Of a stretch of DNA of 30,383 bases, positions 8,178 through 28,849 are shown one piece after another. Every line of letters starts with the position of its first letter. The stretch's first letter is position 1. Source of the stretch: a virus; the IMG/VR virus record IMGVR_UViG_3300042934_001207, positions 1 through 30,383 of that record; one strand, given 5' to 3'. The notes below the pieces were generated by a model, which was given only the letters and a program-made list of their open reading frames with translations, had not been told where the DNA came from and did no database searches. Made by a program: the position numbers and the translations under genes.

Positions 8178-8179
8178 TT

Positions 8180-8722
8180 ATGGATAATAACAATAAAACT
8201 AAGGTAATCACAGGAAAGGTTCGTTTCTCATATGCAAATGTATGGGAGCCTAAATCAATAAATGATGGAGATGAAAAGTACAGTGTTTCTCTTATCATTC
8301 CAAAGTCTGATACAAAGACAATTGCTGAAATAAAGGCAGCAATTGAAGCTGCAAAGCAAGAAGGCAAGGCAAAGTTTGGTGGTAAAATTCCAGCAAATCT
8401 AAAACTCCCACTTCGTGATGGAGATGTCGATCGTCCAGATGACGAGGCTTACAAAAAGAGCTACTTTGTTAATGCCAACAGTAAGGATAAACCTCAAATT
8501 GTTGATAAGAATGTTAAGCCTATCTTAGACCAAAGTGAAGTTTATAGTGGCTGCTATGGTAGAGCAAGTATTACATTCTATGCCTTTAATCAAAACGGTA
8601 ATAAAGGAGTAGCTTGCGGTCTTGGAAATCTGCAAAAGCTTGCTGATGGAGAGCCACTAAGTGGACGTAGCAGAGCTGAATATGATTTCTCATCTGCTGA
8701 AGATGAAGACTTTTTAAGCTAA
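8180..8722 (+). CDS. DUF2815 single-stranded DNA-binding-like protein
   Basis: The 180-residue protein begins GKVRFSYANVWEPKSI and continues with YSVSLIIPKSD, the opening beta strands of the DUF2815 family, which has an OB-like fold related to phage ssDNA-binding proteins. The C-terminus is acidic (FSSAEDEDFLS), like the acidic tail by which SSB and T7 gp2.5 proteins contact replication partners. It lies between the DUF2800 nuclease and the DNA polymerase in one operon. The role as phage SSB is established only by family resemblance. Confidence 0.87.
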   Translation: MDNNNKTKVITGKVRFSYANVWEPKSINDGDEKYSVSLIIPKSDTKTIAEIKAAIEAAKQEGKAKFGGKIPANLKLPLRDGDVDRPDDEAYKKSYFVNANSKDKPQIVDKNVKPILDQSEVYSGCYGRASITFYAFNQNGNKGVACGLGNLQKLADGEPLSGRSRAEYDFSSAEDEDFLS

Positions 8723-8735
8723 GGTGGTTAGGTGT

Positions 8736-10676: not shown

Positions 10677-10734
10677 TGATAAGTAAGAATATTAAATAGA
10701 AGAATAGTAAAGATACATGGAGGTGATGATTCTT

Positions 10735-13095: not shown

Positions 13096-13108
13096 CTAAA
13101 ATAAAGCT

Positions 13109-13334
13109 TGTTCCAATATCAGCAGGAACGAAGGGAATGAGCCGTTAGGTTGTACCGAGGTAATGTTCCAGTAAAGAAGTTAGATTTTAAGCCAGTTTAG
13201 GCTATGTAATGGAACAATGGAACAAGAAAATCTCTTTTGAGATAAATAAGTAATAATAAGTAGTGAATATGTACCTATATAGGTGTATACACACGTGAGG
13301 AGTTTTTTAATCTTTTGTTCCAATACTTGTTCCA
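13109..13334. repeat. TGTTCCA repeat region, candidate replication origin
   Basis: This 263-base gap between the primase-helicase and the next gene has no ORF but holds six copies of TGTTCCA: plus strand at 13109, 13164, 13316 and 13328, minus strand (TGGAACA) at 13210 and 13218. The paired copies point toward each other across a centre holding the perfect 12-bp palindrome ACCTATATAGGT (13273-13284) and AT-rich DNA. Iteron-like repeats plus palindrome in a replication module suggest an origin. Binding sites for a regulator are the alternative. Confidence 0.5.
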
Positions 13335-13358
13335 CCTATTTTGAAAGGAGATTTTAAA

Positions 13359-13574
13359 ATGAATTGTGTAATCGAAGATATATTAAAAGACGATTTTGTT
13401 GAATATTCAAAGGTATATGAACTAGCAAAAATTAAAGGTATGTCCAAAAAGGAAGTTAGAGAAGTAAAAAAAAGAATAGGGATCAAAACAATTTGTGTTG
13501 TAAATGGAGATGAAAGATTGTGGCTATGGTATATTCCGAAAAATGTCTGGAACAGACACTCTCCAATGAAGTAA
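13359..13574 (+). CDS. Small basic protein, possible winged-helix DNA-binding (71 aa)
   Basis: ATG 13359 has AAAGGAG ten bases upstream; an in-frame TTG at 13341 lies before that RBS and is rejected. The middle segment VYELAKIKGMSKKEVREVKKRIGIKT looks like a helix-turn-helix followed by a beta hairpin ending in GDERLWLWYIPK, the layout of small winged-helix proteins that read DNA or assist primases. The 3' end overlaps the VRR-NUC gene by 55 bases in another frame. Genes like this sit between VapE and VRR-NUC genes in related phages. Function is not established. Confidence 0.7.
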   Translation: MNCVIEDILKDDFVEYSKVYELAKIKGMSKKEVREVKKRIGIKTICVVNGDERLWLWYIPKNVWNRHSPMK

Positions 13575-13813
13575 AAAAACGTGGAGGGTTAGCATTAAAG
13601 TTTATATCTCCTGGAATGTCAGGTGTTCCTGATAGATTAATACTAATGAATACTGGAAGGCTTGCTTTTATAGAGATTAAGGCTAATGGAAAGAAAATGA
13701 GACCACTTCAAATGAAGAGAAAAAGGCAATTAGAATTATTAGGATTTTTAGTTTATTGCATAGATAGTAAGGAACAGATTGGAGGTGTGCTTAATGAAAT
13801 ATGTGCCACATGA
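13520..13813 (+). CDS. VRR-NUC domain nuclease
   Basis: The 97-residue protein is a single VRR-NUC domain (PD-(D/E)xK superfamily): SGVPDRLIL with D38, AFIEIKA with E52 and K54, and a following basic helix (MRPLQMKRKRQ). Stand-alone phage VRR-NUC proteins cut branched DNA structures, including Holliday-type junctions in vitro for some family members. The start is GTG 13520 with GGAG ten bases upstream; ATG 13526 is possible but further from the RBS. The gene overlaps the SNF2 helicase gene by 20 bases, and the nuclease plus SNF2 helicase pair is a recurrent phage unit for processing replication intermediates. Confidence 0.9.
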   Translation: MAMVYSEKCLEQTLSNEVKKRGGLALKFISPGMSGVPDRLILMNTGRLAFIEIKANGKKMRPLQMKRKRQLELLGFLVYCIDSKEQIGGVLNEICAT

Positions 13814-15137
13814 ATATCAAAAATATGCTGAAGAATTTATCATAAATCATCCTGATTGTGCATTAATGCTGGATATGGGACTTGGGAAAACAGTAATAAC
13901 TTTAACGTCTATAGCTAGATTACTATTTGATTATTTTGAGTTTTCAAAAGTACTTGTAATAGCTCCACTTAGAGTAGCACAGGATACTTGGAGCAAAGAG
14001 TGTGAAAAATGGGAACATCTAAAGGAACTCAGACTTTCTAAGATTTTAGGCACTGAGAAAGAGAGAAGAATGGCTGTAATTAAAAAAGCAGATATTTATA
14101 TAATTAATCGTGAAAATGTAGAGTGGCTTTGTGAAAACTATAAATTTGATTTTGATATGGTAGTTATAGATGAATTATCAAGCTTCAAGTCACCTACAGC
14201 TAAAAGGTTTAAGGCTCTTAGAAAAGTTAGACCTTATGTAAAAAGGATAGTTGGTCTTACAGGTACACCAGCACCAAACAGCTTAATGGATCTTTGGAGT
14301 CAGATAAATTTAATTGATATGGGACAAAGGTTAGGAAGGTTCATAACTAATTATAGAAATGAGTACTTTGTGCCTGATAAAAGAAATCAACAAATAATCT
14401 TCAGCTATAAACCAAGAGAAGGAGTAGAAGAACAAATATATAATAAAATTTCTGATATATGTGTCAGCATGAAAGCTTGTGATTATTTGAAGATGCCAGA
14501 GAGAATTGATAATGTAGTTGAAGTTCAGTTGGCTGAAAAAGAACAGAACCTATATAAAAAATTAGAAAGTGAAATGCTACTTCCTTTTGCCGATGGAGAT
14601 ATTGATGCTGTAAATGCAGCTGCTCTTTCAAATAAATTACTTCAAATGGCCAATGGTGCTGTCTATGATGAATTTAAAGTAGTAAAAAACATTCACAATA
14701 AAAAGCTTGATGCACTAGAAGATTTAATTGAAGCTGCTAATGAAAAGCCCGTACTTATCTTTTATGCTTACAAGCATGATAAAGAAAGAATATCTGAAAG
14801 ATTTAATATAACTGAGATATTGACAAGTGAAGATATTTCTAAATGGAATAAAGGAATAATTAAAATAGCAATTGCACATCCGGCATCTACTGGCCATGGA
14901 CTTAATCTTCAAGCAGGAGGTTCAACAGTTATATGGTTTGGACTTACCTGGAGCCTAGAACTCTACCAGCAAGCTAATGCTAGACTTTGGAGGCAGGGGC
15001 AAAAGGAAACAGTAGTTATTCATCATATTGTTTCTAAAGGAACTATTGATGAGCAGGTTATGACTGCACTACAGGAAAAAAGGGTAGGACAAGATGATTT
15101 AATAAATGCAGTTAAGGCAAGAGTTGGAGGTGCTTAG
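13794..15137 (+). CDS. SNF2-family DEAD/DEAH helicase
   Basis: The 447-residue protein has Walker A DMGLGKT (27-33), a DELS box in VVIDELSSFKS, motif III LTGTPAPNS, and the C-terminal motifs GLNLQAGG and YQQANARLWRQGQ (motif VI) of SNF2-type translocases. It is short, with no extra DNA-binding domain, as in phage SNF2 proteins. ATG 13794 follows GGAGGTG by six bases; the upstream in-frame start at 13779 lies before that RBS. It overlaps the VRR-NUC gene and directly precedes the sigma-like gene, so it belongs to the same operon. It probably remodels forks or displaces proteins from phage DNA. Confidence 0.93.
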   Translation: MKYVPHEYQKYAEEFIINHPDCALMLDMGLGKTVITLTSIARLLFDYFEFSKVLVIAPLRVAQDTWSKECEKWEHLKELRLSKILGTEKERRMAVIKKADIYIINRENVEWLCENYKFDFDMVVIDELSSFKSPTAKRFKALRKVRPYVKRIVGLTGTPAPNSLMDLWSQINLIDMGQRLGRFITNYRNEYFVPDKRNQQIIFSYKPREGVEEQIYNKISDICVSMKACDYLKMPERIDNVVEVQLAEKEQNLYKKLESEMLLPFADGDIDAVNAAALSNKLLQMANGAVYDEFKVVKNIHNKKLDALEDLIEAANEKPVLIFYAYKHDKERISERFNITEILTSEDISKWNKGIIKIAIAHPASTGHGLNLQAGGSTVIWFGLTWSLELYQQANARLWRQGQKETVVIHHIVSKGTIDEQVMTALQEKRVGQDDLINAVKARVGGA

Positions 15138-16292: not shown

Positions 16293-16371
16293 ATTGTTGT
16301 GTATAAGCTACATTGAAATAGTGATTTTTTACATCTATAATTGAAATATCAAGAAAAAGGTGGTGTTCAAT

Positions 16372-17148
16372 TTGGATAGTAATAAGGCTATAGAATTTTT
16401 TGTGGAAACAGGAGCAGAAATAAGTGGTGCTGTAGCAGGAGCAATTATTGGTGGAGCGGTAGCTGGACCATCTGGATCAATAGCAGGTGCAGTAGGTGGT
16501 ACAGCTATAGAAAAAGTAATTTCTAAAATTGGAACAGAGATTAAAGAAAGAGTTTTATCCAAAAGAGAGAATAAAAAAATAGGTGCAACAGTAACTTTTA
16601 CATTACTAAAAATCAAAGAAAAATTGGATAGTGGGAAGCAACTTAGAGATGATAACTTTTTCAAAGAAGATATTACGGGACGTTCCTCCGCAGATGAGAT
16701 AACAGAGGGTGTTTTGTTTGCTGCACAGAAGGAACATGAAGAGAAAAAATTAACGTATTATGGAAACCTATTAGCCAACATTGCCTTTGATAAAACAATT
16801 ACAAAAGAATTAGCAAATCAATTAATATCTGTTGCAGATAGACTTACTTATCAGCAATTAAAATTATTAAATCTGTTTGTTATAAATCAATTATCTCCAA
16901 TGTCAATTTTAAAACAAGGAAGTTATACGACTGCAAATGGTTATGAGTTAATTTCTGTTTTACAAGATATATATGATCTCTATAGAATAGGATTATTAAA
17001 TGGTAATGGAAATGTTATTCTTGAAATGGGTTATATAAATCCATCACAGATTAAGGTACAAGGTACAGGGGCACTACTATACAACTTAATGGAATTATCT
17101 AAAATACCTTTTGATGAGATGGAAGGTCTAATTAATATGCTGAAATAA
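16372..17148 (+). CDS. Glycine-zipper membrane-type protein, candidate accessory effector
   Basis: AAAGGTGG at 16356-16363 places the start at TTG 16372 (258 aa); the in-frame GTG codons at 16360 and 16363 fall inside the RBS. Residues 14-43 form a glycine-zipper segment (ISGAVAGAIIGGAVAG, then SGSIAGAVGG) able to insert in membranes, as in pore-forming peptides and Gly-zipper proteins. The rest is helical and charged, with ADEITEGVLFAAQKEHEEKK at about 115 and LTYQQLKLLNLFV near 170-182. I believe this C-terminal pattern recurs in phage and island proteins without assigned function. The gene sits alone between HNH and the cos-like block, a slot usually empty, and is more A+T-rich than its neighbours. 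A membrane-acting defence or exclusion protein is a hypothesis only. Confidence 0.7.
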   Translation: MDSNKAIEFFVETGAEISGAVAGAIIGGAVAGPSGSIAGAVGGTAIEKVISKIGTEIKERVLSKRENKKIGATVTFTLLKIKEKLDSGKQLRDDNFFKEDITGRSSADEITEGVLFAAQKEHEEKKLTYYGNLLANIAFDKTITKELANQLISVADRLTYQQLKLLNLFVINQLSPMSILKQGSYTTANGYELISVLQDIYDLYRIGLLNGNGNVILEMGYINPSQIKVQGTGALLYNLMELSKIPFDEMEGLINMLK

Positions 17149-17339: not shown

Positions 17340-17777
17340 TTGACTGGTGATGAAAAAGAAAAAATAAAAGAATTAAGATTAAAAGGTATTGGATATAAGG
17401 GAATTGCAAGTATTTTAGGATTATCTAGAGATAGTGTTAGAGGATTTTGTAAGCGTAATGGTTTAGACGGCAGCTCCTGTGTTGTTGCTCTTAATGTTGA
17501 AGAAAAATTAAAAAGAAATCTGCTTTGCGCTTGTTGTGGAAAGCCAATTAAACAAAAATACCAAGGTAGAACTAGAAGATTTTGCTCCGATGAATGTAGA
17601 AGAAAATGGTGGAATGAAAATCAAGATAAAAGAAATAAAAGTGAAGTTGCAACTTATAAATATATCTGCCCACATTGCGGCAGGGGATTTAGTGCTTATG
17701 GAAATAAGAAAAGAAAATATTGCAGCCATGACTGTTACATAAAAGATAGGTTCTGGAGGGAAGAGAATGGAATTTAA
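17340..17777 (+). CDS. Sigma-like HTH protein with two zinc fingers
   Basis: The start is TTG 17340, with AAAGGAG ten bases upstream. Residues 1-45 form a helix-turn-helix of the sigma-70 region 4/transposase type (IKELRLKGIGYKGIASILGLS). Two cysteine clusters follow: CCGKPI...FCSDECRRKWW and CPHCGRGF...YCSHDCYIKDR, each of the form CxxC...CxxxC. Proteins like this are annotated as sigma-70-like or zinc-finger phage proteins upstream of ParB-methyltransferases. Its last 11 bases overlap the next gene, so the two are made together. A DNA-binding regulatory role is likely, the target unknown. Confidence 0.8.
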   Translation: MTGDEKEKIKELRLKGIGYKGIASILGLSRDSVRGFCKRNGLDGSSCVVALNVEEKLKRNLLCACCGKPIKQKYQGRTRRFCSDECRRKWWNENQDKRNKSEVATYKYICPHCGRGFSAYGNKKRKYCSHDCYIKDRFWREENGI

Positions 17778-19008
17778 AAAATTATCGATAGATTCACTTA
17801 TCCCGGCTGAATATAATCCAAGGAAAAAGTTAAAGCCGGGGGACAGCGAGTTTGAAAAAATAAAAAACAGCATTAATGAATTTGGATATGTAGACCCTGT
17901 TATTGTGAATAAGGATTTAACAGTAATTGGTGGACATCAGAGAATATCAGTATTAAAGACATTGGGAATTACGGAGATAGATTGTGTAGTTATTGATATT
18001 GATAAAACTAAAGAAAAGGCACTAAATATTGCTCTCAATAAAATTAGTGGGGAATGGAATAAAGAATTACTGGCTGATTTGATAAAGGATTTACAATCTT
18101 TAGATTATGATACATCCTTTACAGGTTTTGATCCGCCAGAGATTGATGCACTGTTTAATGAACTTCATCCCAAAGGTGTGAAAGAAGACGGTTTTGATGA
18201 GCCTCTGCCTGAAGCTCCAATAACAAAACAGGGAGACATTTGGATTTTAGGAAGACACCGCTTAATCTGTGGTGACAGTACAAAAATTGAAACATATGGA
18301 ACTTTAATGGAGGGTAAAAAAGTAAATCTAATTGTAACAGATCCTCCATACAATGTAGCCTATGAAGGCAATGCTGGAAAAATTCAAAATGACAATATGG
18401 AAGATAAAAAGTTTTATGAATTTCTTCTTCAGGCTTATAAATGTATGTATGAAAATCTTGCTGATGGTGGCTCAATATATGTGTTTCATGCAGATAAAGA
18501 AACAGTTAATTTTAGAACAGCTTTTAAAGATTCAGGCTTCTTTTGCCACCAAACGTGTATATGGATAAAGAATTCACCAGTACTGGGACGTTGTGATTAT
18601 CAATATAACCATGAACCTGTACTTGTAGGCTGGAAGCCTACTTCAGGACATAAGTTTTATGCGGATAGGAAGCAAAGGACTACATGGAATTTTGATAGAC
18701 CTACAAAATCAAAATATCATCCAACAATGAAGCCAATAGCATTAGTTGCTTATCCAATTACAAATTCAAGTTTAACTAATTCTATTGTGCTGGACCCCTT
18801 TGGAGGAAGTGGATCAACGCTTATAGCCTGTGAGCAAACAGATAGGATTTGTTACACTATAGAGCTTGATGAAAAGTATGCTGACGTTATAGCCAATAGA
18901 TACATTGAGCAGGTAGCTACTGATGAAGGTGTGTTTCTTATAAGGGATGGAGTTAAAACTAAATATACAGATATTTTAAAGGGAGATGAAGTAAATGATC
19001 TTCCTTAA
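17767..19008 (+). CDS. ParB-N domain fused to beta-class DNA methyltransferase
   Basis: Residues 1-110 are a ParB/Sulfiredoxin-type nuclease domain with GGHQR (55-59), the ParB box II motif. Residues 160-400 are an N4-cytosine/N6-adenine methyltransferase with catalytic DPPY at 192-195 before HPTMKP (318-323) and the SAM-binding FGGSG at 345-349, the beta-class order. Such fusions are frequent in phages and methylate phage DNA, which would protect it from restriction. It overlaps the zinc-finger gene by 11 bases. At 413 residues the protein is full length. The recognition sequence cannot be predicted. Confidence 0.93.
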   Translation: MEFKKLSIDSLIPAEYNPRKKLKPGDSEFEKIKNSINEFGYVDPVIVNKDLTVIGGHQRISVLKTLGITEIDCVVIDIDKTKEKALNIALNKISGEWNKELLADLIKDLQSLDYDTSFTGFDPPEIDALFNELHPKGVKEDGFDEPLPEAPITKQGDIWILGRHRLICGDSTKIETYGTLMEGKKVNLIVTDPPYNVAYEGNAGKIQNDNMEDKKFYEFLLQAYKCMYENLADGGSIYVFHADKETVNFRTAFKDSGFFCHQTCIWIKNSPVLGRCDYQYNHEPVLVGWKPTSGHKFYADRKQRTTWNFDRPTKSKYHPTMKPIALVAYPITNSSLTNSIVLDPFGGSGSTLIACEQTDRICYTIELDEKYADVIANRYIEQVATDEGVFLIRDGVKTKYTDILKGDEVNDLP

Positions 19009-19193
19009 CTTTTGCCATTAAAAAGGTTATGGATTTAAATTATAAGAGTGTCTTTATAGGCGGAAAGTTGTCATTAAAATCTTTCATTTTATTTGATAGA
19101 ATCTCGCATATATAACTGGCTATATACTCCTTTCAGAGGTAACATGTATACTACCAAAAGGTAATAAACACACTTTGAAAGGGGTAGAAAGCA

Positions 19194-20102
19194 TTGAAAA
19201 GGCAAACAATTGGTGTAGAAATTGAGATGACAGGAATTACCAGACCAAAAGCAGCCGAGGTTACTGCTAATTTTCTGAGAGGAAGGATTAAGAAAACCTT
19301 TGATAATTATGATACCTACAAAATATTAACACCAGACAATAGGATTTGGAAAATAATGAGTGATGCTAGTATTCGGACAATGAGGAATGAAAAAGGCACA
19401 CTTGTTTCAGCAGATACAAGTTACAGTGTTGAACTAGTAACACCGATTTTAAAGTATGATGATGACATTGAAACTTTACAAGAACTTATTAGGGAACTTA
19501 GGCAGGCAGGAGCAGTTAGTAAGAGCAGCCTTCAATGCGGAATTCACATTCACATAGGTGCAAAGAAACATACTCCAAATACCCTAAAGAATTTGGTTAA
19601 CCTTATGGCTTCGAAAGAGGATTTAATTTACAAAAGCCTTGAGATTGATTTAGCAAGGGTCAGGTATTGCCAAAAAGTTAATGAGAATTTGATTGCAACC
19701 ATAAATAAGAAAAAGCCAAAAACACTATCAGAGCTTGCGAATATTTGGTACAGCGATTATGGGGTTGAAAGCAGAGAAAGGCATTACCATACAAGCAGAT
19801 ATCATGGTCTTAACTTGCACAGCACTTTTACAAAAGAAACTATTGAATTTAGACTTTTTAACGGAACATTGCATGCAGGGAAAATTAGAAGCTACATAGT
19901 TTTCTGCCTAGCGGTAAGCCACCAGGCATTAAAACAAAAGAGTGCCAGTGCAAAACGCACCCATACTGATAATGAAAAATATACATTTAGGTGCTGGTTA
20001 CTTAGACTTGGACTTATAGGAGATGAGTTTAAAAATTGCAGACAGCACCTTATGAAATCCCTTGATGGGAATTCAGCTTGGAGGAGACCCATAGCCGCTT
20101 GA
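19194..20102 (+). CDS. Amidoligase-family protein (glutamine-synthetase-like fold)
   Basis: The start is TTG 19194 with AAAGGGGT upstream. The 302-residue protein has the hallmarks of the amidoligase family: GVEIEMTG near residues 7-14 (metal-binding GxExE), CGIHIHIG near 118-125, and TIEFRLFNGTL near 217-227. Amidoligases use ATP to join a carboxylate to an amine, forming peptide-like bonds. With the gamma-glutamylcyclotransferase next to it, the gene fits predicted phage-encoded peptide-tagging or side-chain-linking systems. The 185 bases before it (19009-19193) hold no gene but contain TATATA-ACTGGC-TATATA near 19110-19127. The substrate is unknown. Confidence 0.85.
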   Translation: MKRQTIGVEIEMTGITRPKAAEVTANFLRGRIKKTFDNYDTYKILTPDNRIWKIMSDASIRTMRNEKGTLVSADTSYSVELVTPILKYDDDIETLQELIRELRQAGAVSKSSLQCGIHIHIGAKKHTPNTLKNLVNLMASKEDLIYKSLEIDLARVRYCQKVNENLIATINKKKPKTLSELANIWYSDYGVESRERHYHTSRYHGLNLHSTFTKETIEFRLFNGTLHAGKIRSYIVFCLAVSHQALKQKSASAKRTHTDNEKYTFRCWLLRLGLIGDEFKNCRQHLMKSLDGNSAWRRPIAA

Positions 20103-20121
20103 AATTAAACATAAAGATGCA

Positions 20122-20142
20122 AAGGGGATTAAAATTCCCCTT
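20122..20142. other. Hairpin between amidoligase and cyclotransferase genes
   Basis: AAGGGGA (20122-20128) pairs with TCCCCTT (20136-20142) with a 7-base loop. No T-run follows, so a processing or translation-control hairpin is as likely as a weak terminator. Confidence 0.4.
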
Positions 20143-20180
20143 GTGTCAAATTAAAATTTTATAAAGGAGAATGTTATAAA

Positions 20181-20651
20181 ATGGCTAAAAAAACAAAGCT
20201 ATATGGTGCATATGGCTCTAATATGAATTTGGAACAAATGAGTCATAGATGTTCTAAAGCAAAGGTTGTAGGAACAGGAATACTTGAAGGATATAAGTTA
20301 ACCTTTAGGGGAAGATATAAAGGTGTTGCAAATATTGAACCTTGTAAGGATAAACAGGTACCAATTGTTTTATGGGAAATAACTGAGGATTGTGAAAAAG
20401 CACTTGATTTGTATGAGGGATTCCCTGACTTATATGTAAAGAAAGAAGTTCAGGTTAAGGTAAAAGGTAAACTTAAATTAGCCATGGTTTATATTGTGGC
20501 TAGAGAATATACCAATATGGCAGCAGCTCCTACAGAATATTATTTTAATGTAATTTCTAGAGGATACTTTGACAATGACATTGATTTAAAACCTCTGCAG
20601 ATTGCCTATTCAGAATGTTTATCTGAACTAAGGGGAGGTAATCATGGATAA
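20181..20651 (+). CDS. Gamma-glutamylcyclotransferase (AIG2/GGCT-like) family protein
   Basis: The N-terminus YGAYGSNMN (8-16) is the YGSLxxG-type substrate-binding loop of the GGCT fold, and LYEGFPDLY carries the likely catalytic glutamate E79. The family releases 5-oxoproline from gamma-glutamyl amines; many phage members act on unknown gamma-glutamyl compounds. At 156 residues the length is typical. It follows the amidoligase, so one may make and the other break a gamma-glutamyl or amide linkage. It overlaps the zinc-ribbon gene by eight bases. The family is clear; the substrate is inferred. Confidence 0.88.
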   Translation: MAKKTKLYGAYGSNMNLEQMSHRCSKAKVVGTGILEGYKLTFRGRYKGVANIEPCKDKQVPIVLWEITEDCEKALDLYEGFPDLYVKKEVQVKVKGKLKLAMVYIVAREYTNMAAAPTEYYFNVISRGYFDNDIDLKPLQIAYSECLSELRGGNHG

Positions 20652-20850
20652 ATTTTTTACACAGAAGACCTGTGATAGATGTGGCGGCCCTTTAGTAAAA
20701 GGCAGAATCATGTCAATGTTTAATACGGACTGCATTTGCATGGATTGCTATGAAAAAGAAAAGAAGGATAAGAATTATGATAAGGCAGTAAAGGCTGACC
20801 ACGATGAAATCAAGAAAGAAAATTATAATTATAAGGGTATACGAGGCTGA
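20644..20850 (+). CDS. Small zinc-ribbon protein (68 aa)
   Basis: The ORF starts at ATG 20644 within the end of the cyclotransferase gene, with GGGGAGG just upstream. Cysteine pairs CDRCGG (C10, C13) and CICMDC (C31 to C36) can bind one zinc, and the C-terminus is a lysine-rich helix. As third gene of the amidoligase cassette it could be the protein that is modified, given its many lysine and acidic side chains, but this is speculation. Confidence 0.75.
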   Translation: MDKFFTQKTCDRCGGPLVKGRIMSMFNTDCICMDCYEKEKKDKNYDKAVKADHDEIKKENYNYKGIRG

Positions 20851-20869
20851 TATAAAAGAAAGTGATGTT

Positions 20870-20900
20870 AAGAGTCTACTATTTTGTAGGCTCTTTTCTT
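20870..20900 (+). terminator. Intrinsic terminator before TerS
   Basis: AAGAGTCTAC (20870-20879) pairs with GTAGGCTCTT (20886-20895) over 10 bp with one T-G pair, loop TATTTT, and TTCTT follows. It closes the amidoligase cassette. Confidence 0.75.
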
Positions 20901-20932
20901 ATGATAAATTTTAAAGATTGGGGGTGAAACCT

Positions 20933-21409
20933 ATGGCACAAAGAGGAAGAAAGCCAAAGCCAACTGCAGTAAAGGAACTTGAGGGCAATCCAGGGAAAAG
21001 AGCACTTAATGAATTTGAACCAAAGCCTCAGAAGAAAGCTCCAAGATGTCCTACATGGCTGGATGCTGAAGCTAAAAAGGAATGGAGAAGAGTAGCAAAG
21101 CAGCTTGGGGAACTTGCTATATTAACAGAAGTTGATATGGCAGCTTTTGCAGGATATTGTGAAGCTTATGCACGTTGGAAAGAGGCAGAAGAATTTATAT
21201 CAAAACATGGAACAATTGTAAAAACACCAAGCGGATATTGGCAGCAAGTGCCACAGGTATCTATTGCCCAAACTTATCTTAAGATTATGATTAAGTTCTG
21301 TGAGCAGTTTGGACTTACACCATCTTCAAGGAGCAGAATTGTTGCAGATAAAGGTTCTAATGATTATTTAGACCCTATGGAAATGATGCTAAGGGGCGAG
21401 GTGAAATAA
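20933..21409 (+). CDS. terS: Terminase small subunit, P27 family
   Basis: ATG 20933 follows GGGGGTG; the in-frame TTG at 20918 lies before it. The 158-residue protein begins RGRKPKPTAVKELEGNPGKR, the signature start of P27-family small terminases, followed by helices with WLDAEAKKEWRRVAKQL and LTEVDMAAFAGYCEAYARW. It binds the packaging site and loads the large subunit. Its stop overlaps the ATG of terL by one base. Confidence 0.95.
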   Translation: MAQRGRKPKPTAVKELEGNPGKRALNEFEPKPQKKAPRCPTWLDAEAKKEWRRVAKQLGELAILTEVDMAAFAGYCEAYARWKEAEEFISKHGTIVKTPSGYWQQVPQVSIAQTYLKIMIKFCEQFGLTPSSRSRIVADKGSNDYLDPMEMMLRGEVK

Positions 21410-22956
21410 TGTATGATGAAGCAAAGGCACAGCACGCTGTTAATTTTATCAACTGCTTAAAGCATACAAAAGGTCAGTGGAGAGGAGTCCCTTTTGATTT
21501 ACTTCTTTGGCAAGATAAAATAATCAGAGATATATTTGGTAATGTTAAAGAAAATAGCTATAGGAAGTACAATACTGCTTATATAGAAATCCCAAAGAAG
21601 AATGGAAAGAGTGAACTTGCAGCAGCAGTGGCACTACTTATGACCTGTGGTGATAATGAATGGGGAGCTGAAGTCTATGGATGTGCTTCTGATAGGCAGC
21701 AAGCATCTATAGTATTTGATGTTGCAGTTGAAATGGTGGAACAATGTCCAGCACTAAAGAAAAGAATAAAGCCTGTCATGTCAGTGAAAAGACTTGTATA
21801 TAAGCCTACAAATAGTTTTTATCAGGTGCTATCAGCTGAAGCTTATACAAAGCATGGACTTAATGTCCACTCAGTTGTTTTTGATGAATTACACGCACAG
21901 CCTAATAGAGAGTTGTTTGACGTAATGACTAAAGGCTCAGGGGATGCAAGGTTGCAGCCACTATTTTTTCTTATAACTACAGCTGGCACAGATAGAAATT
22001 CTATATGCTTTGAACAGCACCAAAAGGCAATGGATATAATTGAAGGTAGAAAAATAGATCCAACCTTTTATCCAGTTATTTATGGGATAGATGATAATGC
22101 TGACTGGGGCTTAGAGAAAAATTGGTATAGAGCTAATCCATCTTTAGGTCATACAATTGATATAGAAAAGGTTAGAAACGCTTATAACAGTGCAAGAGAA
22201 AATCCTGCTGAAGAAAATATATTCCGTCAGCTGAGATTAAATCAATGGGTAAAACAATCCACTCGATGGATGCAGATGGATAAATGGGACGAGTGTGATT
22301 TTAATATAGATATAGATTCACTAAGAGGCAGAGAATGTTATGGAGGACTTGATCTTTCAAGTACTACAGACATAACTGCTTTTGTTTTAGTTTTTCCACC
22401 AAGAACATCTGATGAAAAATATATTGTACTTCCTTACTTTTGGATACCAGATGATAACCTAAAGCTAAGAGTAAGAAGAGATCATGTACCTTATGATGTG
22501 TGGGAGAAACAAAGATTTATAAAAACTACGGAAGGGAATGTGATCCACTATGGATTCATAGAAACTCTTATTGAAGAATTAGGTACAAAGTACAATATTA
22601 AAGAAATAGCTTTTGACAGATGGGGAGCAGTGCAAATGGTACAAAACCTGGAAGGTATGGGATTTACAGTAGTTCCATTCGGACAAGGATATAAGGATAT
22701 GTCTCCATCTTCTAAGGAATTAATGAAGCTAATACTTGAAAAGAAAGTAGCACATGGAGGAAATCCAGTGCTTAGATGGATGATGGACAACATTTATGTT
22801 AAAACAGACCCAGCAGGAAATATTAAGCCTGATAAAGAAAAGAGCACTGAGAAAATTGATGGAGCTGTAGCTTTAATAATGGCTTTAGATAGATCAATTA
22901 GAAATCAAGGGAATTGTGGAAGTGTTTATGATGAGAGAGGGATTTTAATTCTATGA
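21409..22956 (+). CDS. terL: Terminase large subunit, HK97-like
   Basis: The 515-residue protein has a degenerate Walker A IPKKNGKSE (61-69) and Walker B VVFDEL (156-161) for ATP-driven packaging. The C-terminal RNase H-like nuclease has GGLDLSSTTD with its catalytic aspartate and ends in KIDGAVALIMALDR with the last aspartate. It cuts the concatemer and pumps DNA into the prohead. In most HK97-like phages the portal gene follows directly; here 3.9 kb of cargo separates them. The start codon is ATG 21409. Confidence 0.96.
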   Translation: MYDEAKAQHAVNFINCLKHTKGQWRGVPFDLLLWQDKIIRDIFGNVKENSYRKYNTAYIEIPKKNGKSELAAAVALLMTCGDNEWGAEVYGCASDRQQASIVFDVAVEMVEQCPALKKRIKPVMSVKRLVYKPTNSFYQVLSAEAYTKHGLNVHSVVFDELHAQPNRELFDVMTKGSGDARLQPLFFLITTAGTDRNSICFEQHQKAMDIIEGRKIDPTFYPVIYGIDDNADWGLEKNWYRANPSLGHTIDIEKVRNAYNSARENPAEENIFRQLRLNQWVKQSTRWMQMDKWDECDFNIDIDSLRGRECYGGLDLSSTTDITAFVLVFPPRTSDEKYIVLPYFWIPDDNLKLRVRRDHVPYDVWEKQRFIKTTEGNVIHYGFIETLIEELGTKYNIKEIAFDRWGAVQMVQNLEGMGFTVVPFGQGYKDMSPSSKELMKLILEKKVAHGGNPVLRWMMDNIYVKTDPAGNIKPDKEKSTEKIDGAVALIMALDRSIRNQGNCGSVYDERGILIL

Positions 22957-23138
22957 AATATATGATATTATGAATTCAGATGTTTTCTAGAAAGTATCTT
23001 AGTTATTTTTAATAGTATAGATATATGTTTATTATATATTGAAAATAATATTTATGATTGTAAAATAAATGAAATATACAATTATTAATATATTTATTAT
23101 AGTAGACAAAATACAAAACGCTTTGGGAGAATCAAAAT

Positions 23139-24398
23139 ATGAAGAAAGATAGTATTATTAAAAATGAAATTAATACAAATGCGGATTCAAATTTGAAAGG
23201 CTTTGACCTACAAAAATTGAGAGCAACAGAACGTTTACTCAAGGCGTTATCAAATAACAAAAAGTGTGTTTTTTGTACTATAGAATATATTGATGATGTA
23301 ATAGAAGTTGATTTTAGTAATGAACAGTCAAAGATTCAAACAGAGCAAAATAAGGATTATACGAAACCATTTTCGATGAATAGCGAAGAATTAAAAAATT
23401 CCTTAAGAATATTTTTTGATACATGGAGAAAAGTTGAAGATTCTGAAAGCATAACATTTGTATTCTATACAAATACTGGAATTGCTAAAGAAAAACGCAT
23501 TGGAGTATTGAAAGATACTAGTAATGATTTACCAAATGAACCATTGATTCAGCTTTTAATAGAAGAAAAGTATGATGAGGTTTTACCTTTTGTCATCCCA
23601 ATTGTAAAGGATTATTATAAAGAACAGCATAAAAGGCATTCAGAGGATAACTCTTATTATGAAATTCTTATTGAAGAAATGAAATACGAAGAGTGGAAAA
23701 AGTTTTTTAGTCTAATTGAGTGGAGATTTGGTCAGGATGATGAGAAAGAAATAAGAAATAAGATAAAAGCGTTAATTGTACAGTTATGTAAAGAATATGA
23801 TGTCGATATAAAGTATAGTAGCAAAATTCTAGCTAGTATATTAGATATGATAAATTCACGTGCGTTAGAAAATGATTTCTTGAATAAGTTGGTACACGTA
23901 TCGGATATTAAAGTATTATTTTATGATTTTGTAAGAGATGTAAAGGTAGAAGAAAAACTAGATCCAGTATATAGAAAATGGGATGAACTCAAATGTGAAG
24001 ATGTAAGAGATTTAGGAGAAAAAATATTGGCTGTTTGTGATGACTTTGATGAAGATAGTTTATTTGAATATGAAGATGATTTTGTTGAAGGAAAATTTGA
24101 ACAGCAGCATTGCACAGAAATAAAAGAGGTAAAAGCTTATAATTACCGAATTTACAAGGTTTGTAAAAAATATATTAAAAATTTACTCAAAAGCAAAGAC
24201 AAGGATAATTTAGAATTTAGTGAAGATGATATTATTAAAATTATTGAAGAGTTAACAAATGAGTCAGAGCAGTCTATATTAGACAAAAGTAAAACATATA
24301 AAATGCCTTATATGGATAGAGATATGGTTTATAAAACAGTGTTGATTCTTTTTCAAGAGTGTTTTATAGCTTTAGATAGGGTAGGTGATTTAAAATGA
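23139..24398 (+). CDS. Candidate ABC-3C effector: DUF4297/PD-(D/E)xK-like N-terminus plus helical C-terminal domain
   Basis: The 419-residue protein starts at ATG 23139 after GGGAGAA. The N-terminal 110 residues follow the pattern of DUF4297-like restriction nucleases: GFDLQKLRATERLLKALS helix, CTIEYIDDVIEV (E49, D52, D53), KIQTEQNK (Q70-N71-K72 as a possible QxK motif), SLRIFFDTWRK, then SITFVFYTNTG. The remaining 300 residues are helical, acidic, and have no recognised motif, as expected of the C-terminal domain that ties such effectors to their ABC ATPase. The gene overlaps the next by four bases (ATGA). The 182 bases upstream are very A+T-rich, with no clear promoter. The nuclease call rests on a short motif and is moderate; loss of the acidic residue in ExK could mean it is inactive. 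Confidence 0.6.
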   Translation: MKKDSIIKNEINTNADSNLKGFDLQKLRATERLLKALSNNKKCVFCTIEYIDDVIEVDFSNEQSKIQTEQNKDYTKPFSMNSEELKNSLRIFFDTWRKVEDSESITFVFYTNTGIAKEKRIGVLKDTSNDLPNEPLIQLLIEEKYDEVLPFVIPIVKDYYKEQHKRHSEDNSYYEILIEEMKYEEWKKFFSLIEWRFGQDDEKEIRNKIKALIVQLCKEYDVDIKYSSKILASILDMINSRALENDFLNKLVHVSDIKVLFYDFVRDVKVEEKLDPVYRKWDELKCEDVRDLGEKILAVCDDFDEDSLFEYEDDFVEGKFEQQHCTEIKEVKAYNYRIYKVCKKYIKNLLKSKDKDNLEFSEDDIIKIIEELTNESEQSILDKSKTYKMPYMDRDMVYKTVLILFQECFIALDRVGDLK

Positions 24399-24919
24399 AT
24401 AGCAAAAAAAGAATGATGTTCGTTTTAGAAGAAGATTATTACTTTATTATAATAAAATTACTTACAATATTAATTGGGCTAGATTGTAAAAAGAAATCAT
24501 TTACTGATTATAGGAAACTTGGATTTATTTTTGAGTTTATTAAAGCTAATGAAAACATGAACTTATTTGACAAAGTATTTAGTGGAGAAGAATTAAATTT
24601 ATTTGATAATGAACGTTTGTTAAAAATATTTTGTGATTCAAATATGGATATAAGTGTTATAAAAAGAGTTCTATTTTTTTTAGAAAAACAGAATATTATT
24701 TCATTGGAGAAAAATAATAAGTTTAGCTGTATAGATGTAAGATTGTTATATAATTCTCAAATTAACAATTTATTAAATCAAGATATTTTTGATGAAGATA
24801 TAAAAAATGTGAAGAAAATTCGTAAAGCTATAAACAGAGTGCGTTCAATTAAATTTGAGACTTTACAAACAAAAATTTTTGGATATGGAGGATTGCAAAA
24901 TGGGAAGATTAGCTATTAG
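24395..24919 (+). CDS. Candidate ABC-3C middle component (174 aa)
   Basis: The ORF begins inside the stop of the effector gene (ATGA at 24395) and ends 20 bases inside the ATPase gene. The product is helical and A+T-biased in composition (rich in I, K, N, F). It reads as two winged-helix-like units: KLLTILIGLDCKKK...KLGFIFEFIK and VIKRVLFFLEKQNIISLEKNN. Middle components of ABC-three-component systems have the same size, gene order and compact helical, winged-helix-like composition, and bridge effector and ATPase, much as kleisin-associated proteins do for SMC complexes. I recognise it from context; the sequence alone is not diagnostic. Confidence 0.6.
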   Translation: MNSKKRMMFVLEEDYYFIIIKLLTILIGLDCKKKSFTDYRKLGFIFEFIKANENMNLFDKVFSGEELNLFDNERLLKIFCDSNMDISVIKRVLFFLEKQNIISLEKNNKFSCIDVRLLYNSQINNLLNQDIFDEDIKNVKKIRKAINRVRSIKFETLQTKIFGYGGLQNGKISY

Positions 24920-26828
24920 AAGAGTTATATATAATGGACAAAAATATTATTTTGAATCCCCATATTTAAATGATGGTATTATTATTTTAGAGGGAGAGAA
25001 TGAACATGGTAAAAGTACGTTCATGGATCTCATATATTATGGACTTGGAGGAAAGATTTCTGGGTTTAATAAAAGTGATGCAAATGCTGACAATAAGCAT
25101 AATGAAATATATAATGACATAGATAATTATATTGAACTGCAAATTGAGATAAATAATAAAATTTTTGAATTTACTAGAACTATAGGGGATAATACAATTT
25201 ATATTGTTGATCCAGAAGAAAAAGTAACAGAATGTAGCATATATAGAAATTCAAATAGTGATGCTATTATTTTTTCAGATTGGATTTTAAAACAATTAGG
25301 AATTGAAGTATTCGATATTATACAGGGAACCAAGAAGTTTAAACTTAATTTTTCAGACCTAATGCGCCTTATTTATCATGATCAAAAAACAGAAGTTGAT
25401 CGCATATTCAAGAATCCTGATAATGATAATTTTATAGCTGATTCTCTGGAAATACGAAAAGCTATTTTTGAAGTACTACTAGGTGAAATTTATAATGAAT
25501 ACTATTCATTACTTGGACAATACAAATTAAGATTTAAAGAATATGAAAAAGTAGAAGTTATAATGCAGAGCTATGATGAATTTTTAAATGAAGTGTTAGA
25601 TGAGGAATTGGGTAATGTTGCTTATATTCAAAGATTAAAAAAAGAAAAAGAGGAAATGCTTCTTAAAGTTGAAAATGAACGTAATATAGTACGAAATGAA
25701 AAAAGCAATACTGGTGAAGTATTAAATGAAGTAGAAAGTCAGAAGAGAACATTATTACAATTTCAAAATGAAAAAGATAATATGATACAAGCAAAATATG
25801 CTGTTAAACAATCTATTGAGAAAATACTATACCTAATTGATGAGTCAGAAAAAGAAATTTCAGAAATAGAGAAAATTAGGTTTGTAAATAGAAAATTAAA
25901 GCTATTTTCGCCTAATACTTGTCCATATTGTTTAAGGGATGTTGAGCGAGAAAGAGGAAAATGTATTTGTGGTAGTGATATTAATGAAGAAGATTATGAA
26001 AAATTCTTTTATACAGATCAAGAGTATGTAGAAATTATAAAAGTTAAACGAAAAGCTATTCAATCATTAAGTGTTTTACTAGAAAAGAAAAATCAACGGT
26101 TGAAAACTATTCTAGATAGTGTTGATAATATTTCTGAAGCAATTAATAAAGTAAAGTTGTATATTGAAGATTTAACAAAGGATATAACAGCTGAATATAA
26201 TTCTGCATATATTCGAAAATTGGATGATAGAATATATAGTTTAAATTCCGAAATATTAAAGCTTGAACAGGCTGAGGATTTGGCCAAAAAGAAAGAATCG
26301 ATTATGGGTAATTTAACAACCTTGAGAAATCAAGTTGATGGATTAAGAATCAAGGTAGATAGTTGTCTTATTAATGCTAAGGAAGATATGCTGTCAAAAA
26401 AAACAGAATTTAATAAAACATATTTAGAATTAATGAAAAATGCTGATAAATATTGCTTTGATGCTTATCTTGGCGATGATTATATGCCTTATATTAACTT
26501 AAATGAATATAGAGCAAGAAGTGCATCTGTGTCAAAAAGGTTAATGTATTTTTTAACATTACTTATTTTAAGTCTTCAAAATGACTTAAATTATCCAAGA
26601 TTTTTAATGATTGATACTCCTAACAAAGAGGGAATTGATAAGGAAAATTTAATAAGAAATTTAAAAGAATTATCAAAGGCATATGAATTGAGAAAAGATA
26701 AAAATATGTTATTTCAAGTGATATTAACAACGGGAATAGATATTTATCCAGAAAAATTCAAGAAATATGTTTTTCTAACTTTAGAAGGAGAAAATAGATT
26801 ATTAAAAGAAAAAGTTAGCAAACAATGA
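24900..26828 (+). CDS. SMC/Rad50-like ABC ATPase of a candidate ABC-3C system
   Basis: ATG 24900 follows GGAGG (24887-24891) by eight bases, giving 642 residues. The N-terminus has Walker A GENEHGKST (32-40). The C-terminus has a divergent signature SASVSKRL (541-548), Walker B FLMID (568-572) with D-loop-like TPNKEG, and VILTTG as switch strand. Between them lie coiled coils (about 200-330 and 375-500) around a cysteine cluster C341, C344, C355, C357 that can bind zinc, comparable in position to the Rad50 hook. At this length the coils are short. Such ATPases sense nucleic-acid or protein complexes and gate an effector. It ends the three-gene operon and is followed by a terminator. Confidence 0.8.
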   Translation: MGRLAIRRVIYNGQKYYFESPYLNDGIIILEGENEHGKSTFMDLIYYGLGGKISGFNKSDANADNKHNEIYNDIDNYIELQIEINNKIFEFTRTIGDNTIYIVDPEEKVTECSIYRNSNSDAIIFSDWILKQLGIEVFDIIQGTKKFKLNFSDLMRLIYHDQKTEVDRIFKNPDNDNFIADSLEIRKAIFEVLLGEIYNEYYSLLGQYKLRFKEYEKVEVIMQSYDEFLNEVLDEELGNVAYIQRLKKEKEEMLLKVENERNIVRNEKSNTGEVLNEVESQKRTLLQFQNEKDNMIQAKYAVKQSIEKILYLIDESEKEISEIEKIRFVNRKLKLFSPNTCPYCLRDVERERGKCICGSDINEEDYEKFFYTDQEYVEIIKVKRKAIQSLSVLLEKKNQRLKTILDSVDNISEAINKVKLYIEDLTKDITAEYNSAYIRKLDDRIYSLNSEILKLEQAEDLAKKKESIMGNLTTLRNQVDGLRIKVDSCLINAKEDMLSKKTEFNKTYLELMKNADKYCFDAYLGDDYMPYINLNEYRARSASVSKRLMYFLTLLILSLQNDLNYPRFLMIDTPNKEGIDKENLIRNLKELSKAYELRKDKNMLFQVILTTGIDIYPEKFKKYVFLTLEGENRLLKEKVSKQ

Positions 26829-26837
26829 TAATATAGT

Positions 26838-26867
26838 AAAAGCATCTGTTAATTCAGGTGCTTTTTT
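26838..26867 (+). terminator. Strong intrinsic terminator between cargo and portal
   Basis: AAAAGCATCTG (26838-26848) pairs with CAGGTGCTTTT (26855-26865) over 11 bp with one T-G pair, loop TTAATT, T-run to 26867. Its start matches the terminator at 15604 (AAAGCATCTG). It stops cargo transcription before the head genes. Confidence 0.8.
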
Positions 26868-26893
26868 CATGCTCATTTTTAGGAGGTAGCATT

Positions 26894-28132
26894 ATGAAAA
26901 TACCAATAATATCAAGACTTTGGGAATCTAGAGCAGGCCCTAAAAATAGCTTTTGTGGAAGCACGTACAGCTTTTTCTTTGGCAGCACCACAAGTGGAAA
27001 GACAGTAAATGAAAGAACAGCAATGCAAACTACTGCAGTCTATGCTTGTGTTAGGATACTTGCTGAAACAATAGCTTCACTTCCGCTTCATACCTATAGA
27101 TATACTGAAGCTGGTAAGGAGAAGGCTTCAGACCATCAAATATATCATCTCCTTGCAGATGAACCAAATCCCGAGATGACCTCATTTGTGTTTAGAGAAA
27201 CACTTATGGGTCATCTTTTATTATGGGGAAATGCATATGCCCAAATTATCAGGGATGGAAGAGGAAAGATAATAGCTTTATATCCTCTAATGCCTGATAA
27301 AATGACTGTAAATAGGGCTGATAATGGTGATATTTACTATGTTTATAACAAAGATGGACAGGAATATCCATTAAGAAGTGATGAAGTATTGCATATTCCA
27401 GGGCTTGGATTTGACGGACTTATTGGCTATTCTCCTATTGCTATGGCTAAAAATGCAATAGGTATGGCAATAGCAACGGAGGAATATGGAGCTAAATTCT
27501 TTGCAAATGGTGCAAATCCTGGTGGTGTACTTGAGCATCCGGGAGTAGTAAAAGATCCTGCAAGGGTTAGAGAAAGCTGGAATAGTGTGTATCAAGGAAG
27601 CTCTAATGCTCATAGAGTTGCAGTTTTAGAAGAGGGTATGAAGTTTCAAAGTATAGGAATTCCACCAGAGCAGGCACAGTTTTTACAAACTAGGAAGTTT
27701 CAAATAAATGAAATAGCAAGGATATTTAGAATTCCACCTCATATGATAGGAGATCTTGATAAATCAAGTTTTTCTAATATTGAGCAGCAGTCACTGGAAT
27801 TTGTAATGTATACCCTCGATCCTTGGGTAGTCAGATGGGAACAAGCAATTAAAAGAGCTTTGTTTACTGAAAGTGAAAAGAAACAGTATTTTGTTAAGTT
27901 TAATGTAGATGGACTGCTTAGAGGTGACTACCAAAGTAGAATGAATGGTTATGCCATAGGAAGGCAAAATGGTTGGTTATCAAGTAATGACATAAGAGAA
28001 CTTGAAAATCTCAATAAAATACCAGAGGAGCTTGGTGGAGATTTGTATTTAATTAATGGGAACATGACAAAGTTAGCTGATGCAGGGGCATTCGCTAATA
28101 AGAATAGTACAGGATTGGGGGAGGAAAAGTGA
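26894..28132 (+). CDS. HK97-family portal protein
   Basis: ATG 26894 follows AGGAGG; the in-frame start at 26858 lies inside the upstream terminator. The 412-residue protein has the phage portal pattern: AMQTTAVYACVRILAETIASLPLH (residues 38-60, split here for the central VRILAETIA), GNAYAQIIRDGRG, DEVLHIPGLG, and RIPPHMIGDLDKSSFSNIEQQ. Twelve copies form the ring through which DNA enters. Its end overlaps the protease gene by four bases (GTGA). Confidence 0.94.
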   Translation: MKIPIISRLWESRAGPKNSFCGSTYSFFFGSTTSGKTVNERTAMQTTAVYACVRILAETIASLPLHTYRYTEAGKEKASDHQIYHLLADEPNPEMTSFVFRETLMGHLLLWGNAYAQIIRDGRGKIIALYPLMPDKMTVNRADNGDIYYVYNKDGQEYPLRSDEVLHIPGLGFDGLIGYSPIAMAKNAIGMAIATEEYGAKFFANGANPGGVLEHPGVVKDPARVRESWNSVYQGSSNAHRVAVLEEGMKFQSIGIPPEQAQFLQTRKFQINEIARIFRIPPHMIGDLDKSSFSNIEQQSLEFVMYTLDPWVVRWEQAIKRALFTESEKKQYFVKFNVDGLLRGDYQSRMNGYAIGRQNGWLSSNDIRELENLNKIPEELGGDLYLINGNMTKLADAGAFANKNSTGLGEEK

Positions 28133-28833
28133 GCAAGAAGTTTTGGAATTGGGTAAAGAATGAAGATGGAAGGACTCTTTATTTTGATGGATATATTGCA
28201 GAGGACAGTTGGTTTGATGATGACATTACTCCTAAAAAGTTTAAGTCTGAACTTACAGCATCTGAAGGGGATATATCAGTGTGGCTTAATTCACCAGGGG
28301 GTGATGTTTTTGCTGCAAGTCAAATTTATACAATGTTAAAGGAATACAAAGGCAAAGTCACAGTGAAAATTGATGGCATAGCAGCTAGTGCTGCATCAGT
28401 TATTGCTATGGCGGGAAGTGAAATATTAATGTCACCTGTGGCAATGATGATGATTCATAATCCATCTACAGTTATTTTTGGAGAAGAATCTGATTTTCAA
28501 AGTGGAATTGATATGCTGTCAGAGGTAAAGGAAAGTATAATCAATGCTTATGAGCAAAAGACAGGACTTACTAGAAATAAGATATCAAAAATGATGGATT
28601 CTGAAACTTGGTTTAGTGCTAAAAAAGCAGTAGAACTTGGTTTTGCAGATAAAGTTTTATATGAGGATACTGATACTGAGGAAGAAACAACTGATGGCTT
28701 TATCTTTGATAAAGTAACTGTAACTAATGCCTTAATGAGAAAGATACCTAAGGTAGAACAAACACAGCATACAACAGAAATAGGCACACCGTATGAGCAA
28801 TTACTTAAAAGGCTTGATCTTTTAAAATATTAG
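28129..28833 (+). CDS. ClpP-like prohead (capsid maturation) protease
   Basis: The start is GTG 28129 within the portal stop, with GGGGGAGG upstream. The 234-residue protein is a ClpP-fold serine protease: WLNSPGGDVFAA (52-63), catalytic serine S87 in IDGIAASAASVIA, histidine H110 in MMMIHNPST. ClpP-type proteases replace the unrelated HK97 protease in many Gram-positive phages and cleave the capsid N-terminal scaffold. The C-terminal EEETTDGF region is acidic. It lies between portal and capsid as usual. Confidence 0.94.
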   Translation: MSKKFWNWVKNEDGRTLYFDGYIAEDSWFDDDITPKKFKSELTASEGDISVWLNSPGGDVFAASQIYTMLKEYKGKVTVKIDGIAASAASVIAMAGSEILMSPVAMMMIHNPSTVIFGEESDFQSGIDMLSEVKESIINAYEQKTGLTRNKISKMMDSETWFSAKKAVELGFADKVLYEDTDTEEETTDGFIFDKVTVTNALMRKIPKVEQTQHTTEIGTPYEQLLKRLDLLKY

Positions 28834-28849
28834 ATTTGGGGGAATATAC

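Follow-up and report, generated by a model that had tools for sequence, protein, structure and literature searches.

Gene neighbourhoods that combine a phage amidoligase with a protein of the AIG2/GGCT family were reportedly predicted by Iyer et al. in 2009 (Mol Biosyst 5:1636). According to excerpts of the published accounts, the same two families are annotated in Arthrobacter phages (PMC5513430), in Tn6164 (PMC3485107), in C. clostridioforme prophages (PMC11318856) and in a planctomycete phage (PMC10945688), and a LUZ24-like phage gene set comprises COOH-NH2_lig, Amidoligase_2, GATase_6, ATP-grasp and AIG2 (PMC3890496). No demonstrated substrate of an amidoligase-cyclotransferase pair was found in the open-licence literature, insofar as excerpts of it cover the subject. 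In clostridial phages, both from the gut and from the environment, such pairs are found repeatedly, and we have analysed one that is encoded in 30,383 nucleotides of viral DNA (the window, i.e., the whole stretch).

Composition and setting of the cassette

The cassette consists of three consecutive plus-strand genes with open reading frames at exactly 19194–20102, 20181–20651 and 20644–20850, the last two overlapping by 8 bases, as the earlier note had described. The first gene, which has a TTG start, encodes a 302-residue amidoligase that matches Amidoligase_2 (PF12224; E = 1.1e-73, 248.6 bits, curated cut-off 22), and the second a 156-residue gamma-glutamyl cyclotransferase of the GGACT/AIG2 family (PF06094; E = 1.2e-12, 48.9 bits, cut-off 22.8). 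The proposal that an amide-forming family is here followed by an amide-cleaving one is borne out by these matches, and the two genes also behave as one unit, as described below. The AlphaFold2 model of the amidoligase (pLDDT 93.5) is predicted to have a GS/glutamate-cysteine-ligase-type fold, nearest to YbdK and glutamate-cysteine ligase. In a Foldseek search with this model, YbdK (1r8g, E = 1.9e-5) was the sole PDB entry below 0.001, and VIA-align returned Z-scores of 14.8 (1tt4; 237 residues, 3.7 Å) and 14.7 (1r8g) for YbdK, 13.8 for plant glutamate-cysteine ligase (2gwc), and at most 11.7 for glutamine synthetases and Dop. The likeness lies in the overall fold: identity is 11–14% in the alignments to 1tt4, 1r8g and 2gwc, and on the amidoligase the NCBIfam model of the YbdK type, TIGR02050, reaches 15.7 bits against a cut-off of 176.4; searches of PDB sequences with the amidoligase sequence and profile gave chance hits only. 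The full set of core residues, Glu9, Glu11, Asp57, His118, His120, Glu218 and Arg220, is retained by 155 of 159 distinct homologues, and the residues of the ExE, HxH and ExR motifs are presumably metal/ATP ligands.

The cyclotransferase profile matches human GGCT (E = 3.9e-20). Tyr11, Gly12, Asn14 and Glu79 are invariant in 46 sequences and Ser13 almost so; Glu79 aligns with the glutamate in the LDEQEG segment of human GGCT, and by analogy with that enzyme we take it to be the catalytic residue, and the Tyr11 region to be the YGSN-type loop. The third gene encodes a 68-residue zinc-ribbon protein that has no Pfam match above cut-off and in which Cys10, Cys13, Cys30, Cys32 and Cys35 are invariant in 42 sequences. 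It matches PHROG 27033, a profile where the ribbon follows a cyclotransferase-like part; the cyclotransferase and the ribbon protein of the window align to it at positions 2–128 and 141–208, respectively. All three genes are intact and under purifying selection. In pairwise comparisons of the window genes with at most 13 selected relatives, median dN/dS was 0.09 (amidoligase), 0.17 (cyclotransferase) and 0.06 (ribbon); the large terminase gave 0.06 (after removal of saturated pairs, namely one for the amidoligase, three for the ribbon and one for the large terminase).

The cassette lies between a ParB/N6-N4 methyltransferase gene (17767–19008, plus strand), identified by a profile match, and the small and large terminase genes (20918–22956, plus strand; 20918–21409 and 21409–22956), identified from the ORF list and by profile matches. 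Nine genes are common to Ca. Heliusviridae/Heliusvirales gut phages, according to an excerpt of the report that describes them (PMC9226167). Counterparts of all nine signature genes are encoded in the window, at 7011–15137 and 21409–30046, with the VRR_NUC counterpart scoring 20.2 bits, below the cut-off of 23.8. The DUF2815 counterpart was taken via PF10991, which we take to be the same family renamed. Judged by these sequence matches, the window phage appears to fit Ca. Heliusvirales. It differs from the gut phages of that group in that, among the matches listed, its nearest relative with a named genome belongs to Clostridium, namely Clostridium vincentii, whose amidoligase is 86% identical. 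In three annotated Ca. Heliusvirales records the amidoligase gene likewise has a ParB/methyltransferase-type gene on one side and the terminase genes on the other, with the cyclotransferase gene just downstream (annotated as 'hypothetical protein' in one record and assigned to the family here); the ribbon has a relative in the other two records only.

Two other parts of the window deserve mention in their own right. Positions 23139–26828, between the terminase and portal genes, hold three genes that make up a Lamassu-like defence operon carried by the phage, in which the first resembles LmuA (PADLOC, E = 8e-14) and LmuB is matched by the third (E = 5.4e-53); in other loci the same spot is filled by other genes, and locus L073 also has the first and third Lamassu-like genes. 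A 262-residue protein encoded at 16360–17148, between an HNH gene and an HTH/zinc gene, gives weak glycine-zipper-like matches, all under cut-off, and has no match in PADLOC.

Inheritance and spread of the pair

Terminase-seeded loci were analysed as the best 80 of 273, of which the 50 with at least 4.5 kb upstream were counted and 30 were left out. Amidoligase and cyclotransferase are both present in 36 of these 50 loci and both absent in 14, and neither occurs singly. On the terminase tree, presence of the pair requires about 6 joint changes, and five independent supported tree pairs all agree on the state of the two genes (p = 0.0625, five being too few for significance). Independent loss of the genes, which the earlier note had named as counter-evidence, is thus absent for the pair in this set, and it is present for the ribbon, as detailed below. 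Outside the terminase-seeded set, a close cyclotransferase accompanies the amidoligase in 65 of 78 amidoligase-seeded viral loci. Six of the 13 exceptions have a more distant GGACT gene in the record (L064, L065, L068, L069, L070 and L072) and five end at most about 1.4 kb from the gene (L066, L067, L071, L075 and L079), which leaves L016 and L073; their records span 68 and 98 kb, and the cyclotransferase alone has been lost from them. Four further loci with an amidoligase and no cyclotransferase (L289, L304, L305 and L313) are found among the best 80 of at least 585 loci from bacterial genomes, and all seven core residues of the ligase are kept in L016, L073, L304, L305 and L313. Conversely, an amidoligase match is missing from 17 of 33 distant cyclotransferase-seeded records (out of 62), and two of the 17 are longer than 100 kb. 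In the lineages followed by the terminase the pair nevertheless behaves as a unit of inheritance.

The pair is not confined to phages. By their marker genes, the best 80 of the bacterial-genome loci comprise 49 phage-like, 15 conjugative and 16 loci of neither kind. The distance rule finds both genes in 74 of the 80, and L302 and L329, in which they overlap, bring the total to 76. All 15 conjugative elements in this selection carry both genes, 11 in the order VirB4, amidoligase, cyclotransferase, M23 or NlpC hydrolase, and four in the order NlpC, DUF6103, amidoligase, cyclotransferase, MobP3. Two small islands, L342 (4638–8256) and L364 (4643–8257), show the order integrase, amidoligase, cyclotransferase, resolvase. 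Retention of the pair in phages, conjugative elements and islands makes a capsid target unlikely, and its travel as a unit among these element types suggests that it most likely acts on something in the host cell or in the cell's envelope rather than on a part of the virion.

Two further arrangements were observed. In L317 and L362, two more small islands, a D12 methyltransferase gene lies near the pair, together with an integrase gene in the former and a resolvase gene in the latter. L064 (5977–8775), which belongs to another phage lineage, has the order amidoligase, DUF5049, GATase_6 and distant GGACT, possibly linked to the LUZ24-like sets.

Many relatives carry, near the amidoligase gene and mostly upstream of it, a gene for a second protein of about 230–300 residues, here called AL2 (full-length examples: L027, 5109–5864; L094, 4984–5775; L178, 447–1265); there is no AL2 beside the cassette in the window. 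AL2 occurs without the pair in 13 of the 50 terminase-seeded loci (from the best 80 of 273), such that the amidoligase or AL2 is found in 49 of the 50. Comparison of the AL2 and amidoligase profiles gives a probability of 100 with E = 1.5e-43 over 243 columns, the C-terminal region being best conserved in both. Four AL2 proteins searched against Pfam gave nothing over cut-off, and a search of the PDB with AL2 gave no match below E = 0.001; homology to the amidoligase is nonetheless supported, because the L178 AL2 passes Amidoligase_2 with 29.3 bits. The residues of the ligase's ExE, HxH and ExR motifs are absent from the AL2 alignment, and AL2 is, as judged from these alignments, an amidoligase paralogue devoid of catalytic residues and predicted to be catalytically dead. 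An excerpt of the report on Tn6164 lists a 'hypothetical/virulence-related protein' directly before the amidoligase and AIG2 gene (PMC3485107); we infer that this is an AL2, and no sign of virulence was seen in that excerpt.

The ribbon is distributed differently. It is present in 17 of the 50 terminase-seeded loci (again from the best 80 of 273), 12 with the pair and five without, i.e., it is missing from 24 of 36 pair-positive loci and present in 5 of 14 pair-negative ones, and it changes about 10 times on the terminase tree. Among 70 ribbon-seeded loci, 24 have AL2 without amidoligase or cyclotransferase, 24 have both genes of the pair (five of them with AL2 as well), 17, some of them fragments, have none of the three, and five show other combinations. 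A whole-record search of 38 ribbon-seeded records with Amidoligase_2 yielded two matches over cut-off, one being a 28-position piece with a stop. In a plasmid search no ribbon was found, and the amidoligase matched four records, one covering at least 80%. We conclude that the ribbon is an optional accessory outside the amidoligase-cyclotransferase unit and shared with AL2, beside which it often lies. The earlier note had cast it as substrate or carrier of the pair. LysW-type amino-group carriers are small zinc ribbons with a fixed acidic tail and a C-terminal glutamate, and such a tail is absent from the ribbon studied here, which ends with GIRG in the window and in which the last residues vary (42-sequence alignment, 21 rows inspected). 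The carrier or substrate role is rejected because the ribbon is distributed apart from the pair and its C-terminus offers no fixed tag. A ubiquitin-like nature was considered as well and dismissed: the polyubiquitin matches rest on one 15-residue stretch repeated along the chains, none passes alone, and we attribute them to chance.

Leader and end of the cassette

The earlier note placed a hairpin and a terminator at the borders of the cassette, and folding recovers both. The region upstream of the amidoligase gene (19060–19193) folds with z = -6.2 into a 14-bp stem whose arms, on the plus strand, lie at 19125–19138 and 19173–19186, the 3' arm including the Shine-Dalgarno sequence AAAGGGG (19178–19184) of the amidoligase gene, a feature that the earlier note does not mention. 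A second hairpin, without a T-run, lies between the amidoligase and cyclotransferase genes (20116–20147, plus strand; z = -3.1 for 20103–20180), and a terminator-like 10-bp stem follows the cassette (20870–20895, plus strand; z = -2.6 for 20851–20932). In the window alone terminator-like sites are not above chance (two found, 1.2 expected). In relatives, a permissive rule places such a stem after the final gene of the cassette in 44 of 48 loci, and a stricter one detects it in 22 of the 27 distinct, short intergenic regions versus 1 of 270 shuffles.

In an alignment of 29 chosen amidoligase leaders (28 distinct), which are related sequences with kinship only partly removed, 81.4% of the cells of the leader stem are paired, compared with at most 62.2% when the arms are slid, and 20 cells show a double change, a number reached in 0 of 500 shuffles (mean 9.5). 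Neither the doubly changed pairs (7 versus 5.9) nor the pair types (19 versus 18.1) are more numerous than in shuffles, and RNAalifold returned no structure on this alignment. In 17 non-redundant amidoligase leaders, kinship again not being fully removed, own arms pair with -14.4 kcal/mol and swapped arms with -11.6 (permutation p = 5e-5). In spite of the disagreement of RNAalifold, a covarying hairpin is likely to mask the ribosome-binding site of the amidoligase gene.

The 5' arm lies within a promoter-like element, which opens the leader (19115–19193) and reads ACTGG[AC]TA-N12-AGAGNKAAYATR (19115–19146, plus strand), in which TGGCTA (19117–19122) and TAACAT (19140–19145) are spaced by 17 nt. 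This is the one match without mismatch in the window, all others having three mismatches. Among 44 chosen records, 23 contain the core of the element, with 33 matches in total and no match to the reversed pattern, and a looser form gives 59 real matches versus 9 by chance. The element stands upstream of 40 of 105 distinct amidoligase genes (65 have no recognised copy) and of none of 108 cyclotransferase, 113 methyltransferase, 64 AL2 and 71 ribbon genes. Of 80 distinct copies, 36 stand before an amidoligase gene and one before a DUF5049 gene, and the remaining 43 precede no gene of an annotated family; amidoligase-adjacent copies are over-represented in these counts because the loci were picked partly via the amidoligase. 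The hexamers are poor relative to the sigma-A consensus, and a consensus scan did not list them. Activity as a promoter is suggested by the recurrence and spacing of the element. It was also observed that the element can occur up to five times per locus (L241, 1719–3119; L053, 7447–8067; L327; L339), mostly before small unannotated genes, and that repeated copies lie between the methyltransferase and terminase genes, usually without a strong hairpin.

The arrangement suggests how the amidoligase gene may be gated. Transcripts reading through from the methyltransferase gene would fold the hairpin and hide the ribosome-binding site; with the boxes 17 nt apart, a start near 19152 would exclude the 5' arm, and transcripts from the promoter-like sequence inside the hairpin would leave the amidoligase translatable. 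An excerpt of a report on phage T4 describes leader hairpins of genes e, soc, 49 and I-TevI that mask the ribosome-binding site in long transcripts, and a late promoter of gene e within the stretch that encodes the 5' strand (PMC3014915). The putative leader of the amidoligase gene has the same arrangement as gene e, as far as that excerpt describes it, with a Shine-Dalgarno-masking hairpin and a promoter-like sequence at the 5' strand; its boxes, however, differ from the T4 late TATAAATA, and its promoter is predicted. A leader that works in the proposed way would mean that post-transcriptional gating in the style of T4 exists in an unrelated and common phage group. The leader might instead be a riboswitch-like regulatory RNA that binds a ligand or protein and contains no promoter, which would agree with the conserved loop between covarying arms. 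We hold this to be unlikely, given that the ACTGG block, which is conserved, sits outside the stem at a constant spacing and that copies of the element also occur where there is no strong hairpin: the advantage of own arms over swapped ones is small across the whole set of 44 copies (-7.9 versus -6.8, p = 0.0004) and is strong only in amidoligase leaders. A known RNA family was sought and rejected, as Rfam 15 gave nothing at gathering thresholds in the whole window and four matches far below cut-offs in 18990–19230 (best E = 2.6); blastn of the leader against GenBank phages gave no match.

Possible roles of the pair and comparison with known systems

The predicted fold of the amidoligase and the match of the cyclotransferase to human GGCT make gamma-glutamyl ligation and removal the most economical chemistry. 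The amidoligase would consume ATP in linking an amine to a carboxyl group (probably that at the gamma position of glutamate), and the cyclotransferase would release gamma-glutamyl groups as 5-oxoproline, such that the two might constitute an add/remove pair. Two features of a moron, variable presence and a terminator-like stem, are seen here, and an own promoter is suggested by the sequence of the leader. The explanation that we prefer, at a probability of roughly 0.5, is that a Heliusvirales-type phage of a clostridial host carries a moron-like, separately gated module that adds and removes gamma-glutamyl groups and is aimed at the host or its envelope, with timing set by the leader.

Several other roles deserve consideration. 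The pair may make and trim amide bonds in peptidoglycan precursors or in a different polymer of the wall and thereby block superinfection or ease export or entry of DNA. The position between a VirB4-type ATPase and an M23/NlpC-type wall hydrolase in 11 of the 15 conjugative elements, and after NlpC and DUF6103 in the other four, is consistent with such envelope modification, and an excerpt of one report, citing Iyer 2009, credits the phiEco32 amidoligase with receptor modification (PMC11318856). This argument comes from gene neighbourhood, however, whereas neither protein has a visible export role and the phage and island copies have no adjacent wall gene, and we consider this version unlikely. 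Phages, conjugative elements and islands all face the problem of establishment, and the pair adjoins DNA methyltransferase genes; modification of, or shielding from, a host defence protein or signal as foreign DNA enters would fit both facts. The late-side position beside the terminase genes speaks against counter-defence, as does the failure of the amidoligase, cyclotransferase, ribbon and AL2 to match PADLOC, a library of defence and not of counter-defence proteins, and we find such a role quite improbable.

Both families include metabolic enzymes, and a contribution to the glutamate or amine metabolism of the host has been proposed for the planctomycete phage, which promotes growth and carries such genes; the excerpted report gives no single-gene tests (PMC10945688). 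Tiny islands and conjugative elements do not suggest a metabolic role at burst time, which makes this highly doubtful for the present pair. Joint inheritance and the mobility of the two genes on their own would also suit a toxin-antitoxin-like system in which the ligase harms the host by target modification and the cyclotransferase repairs the damage, yet orphan ligases keep their core residues, and this weakens the idea to the point where we give it almost no credence. A broader and quite speculative extension of the preferred add/remove module is a 'write and erase' gamma-glutamylation system that moves among phages, conjugative elements and small islands, in which the active pair and the dead AL2, often with the ribbon, would both reach a single host target by way of the C-terminal region that is best conserved in the two, the former modifying it and the latter just binding it, and in which the pair of the window lineage would be kept silent by the promoter-in-hairpin switch until its own promoter fires. 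Joint inheritance, spread to conjugative elements and islands, and the apparently dead paralogue found where the pair resides turn the matter into a two-gene biochemical question, and the same findings weaken the capsid and ribbon hypotheses for the pair.

Compared with the LUZ24-like set, as it appears in an excerpt of its description (PMC3890496), the cassette of the window likewise combines Amidoligase_2 and AIG2 in one phage region, but lacks the second ligase family, the ATP-grasp protein and the amidotransferase. The predicted amidoligase-AIG2/GGCT neighbourhoods also place these two families in one phage region. Beyond those predictions, the present analysis counts the joint gain and loss of the two genes, separates AL2 and the optional ribbon from them, follows the pair into conjugative elements and islands, and adds a leader that probably gates the amidoligase.
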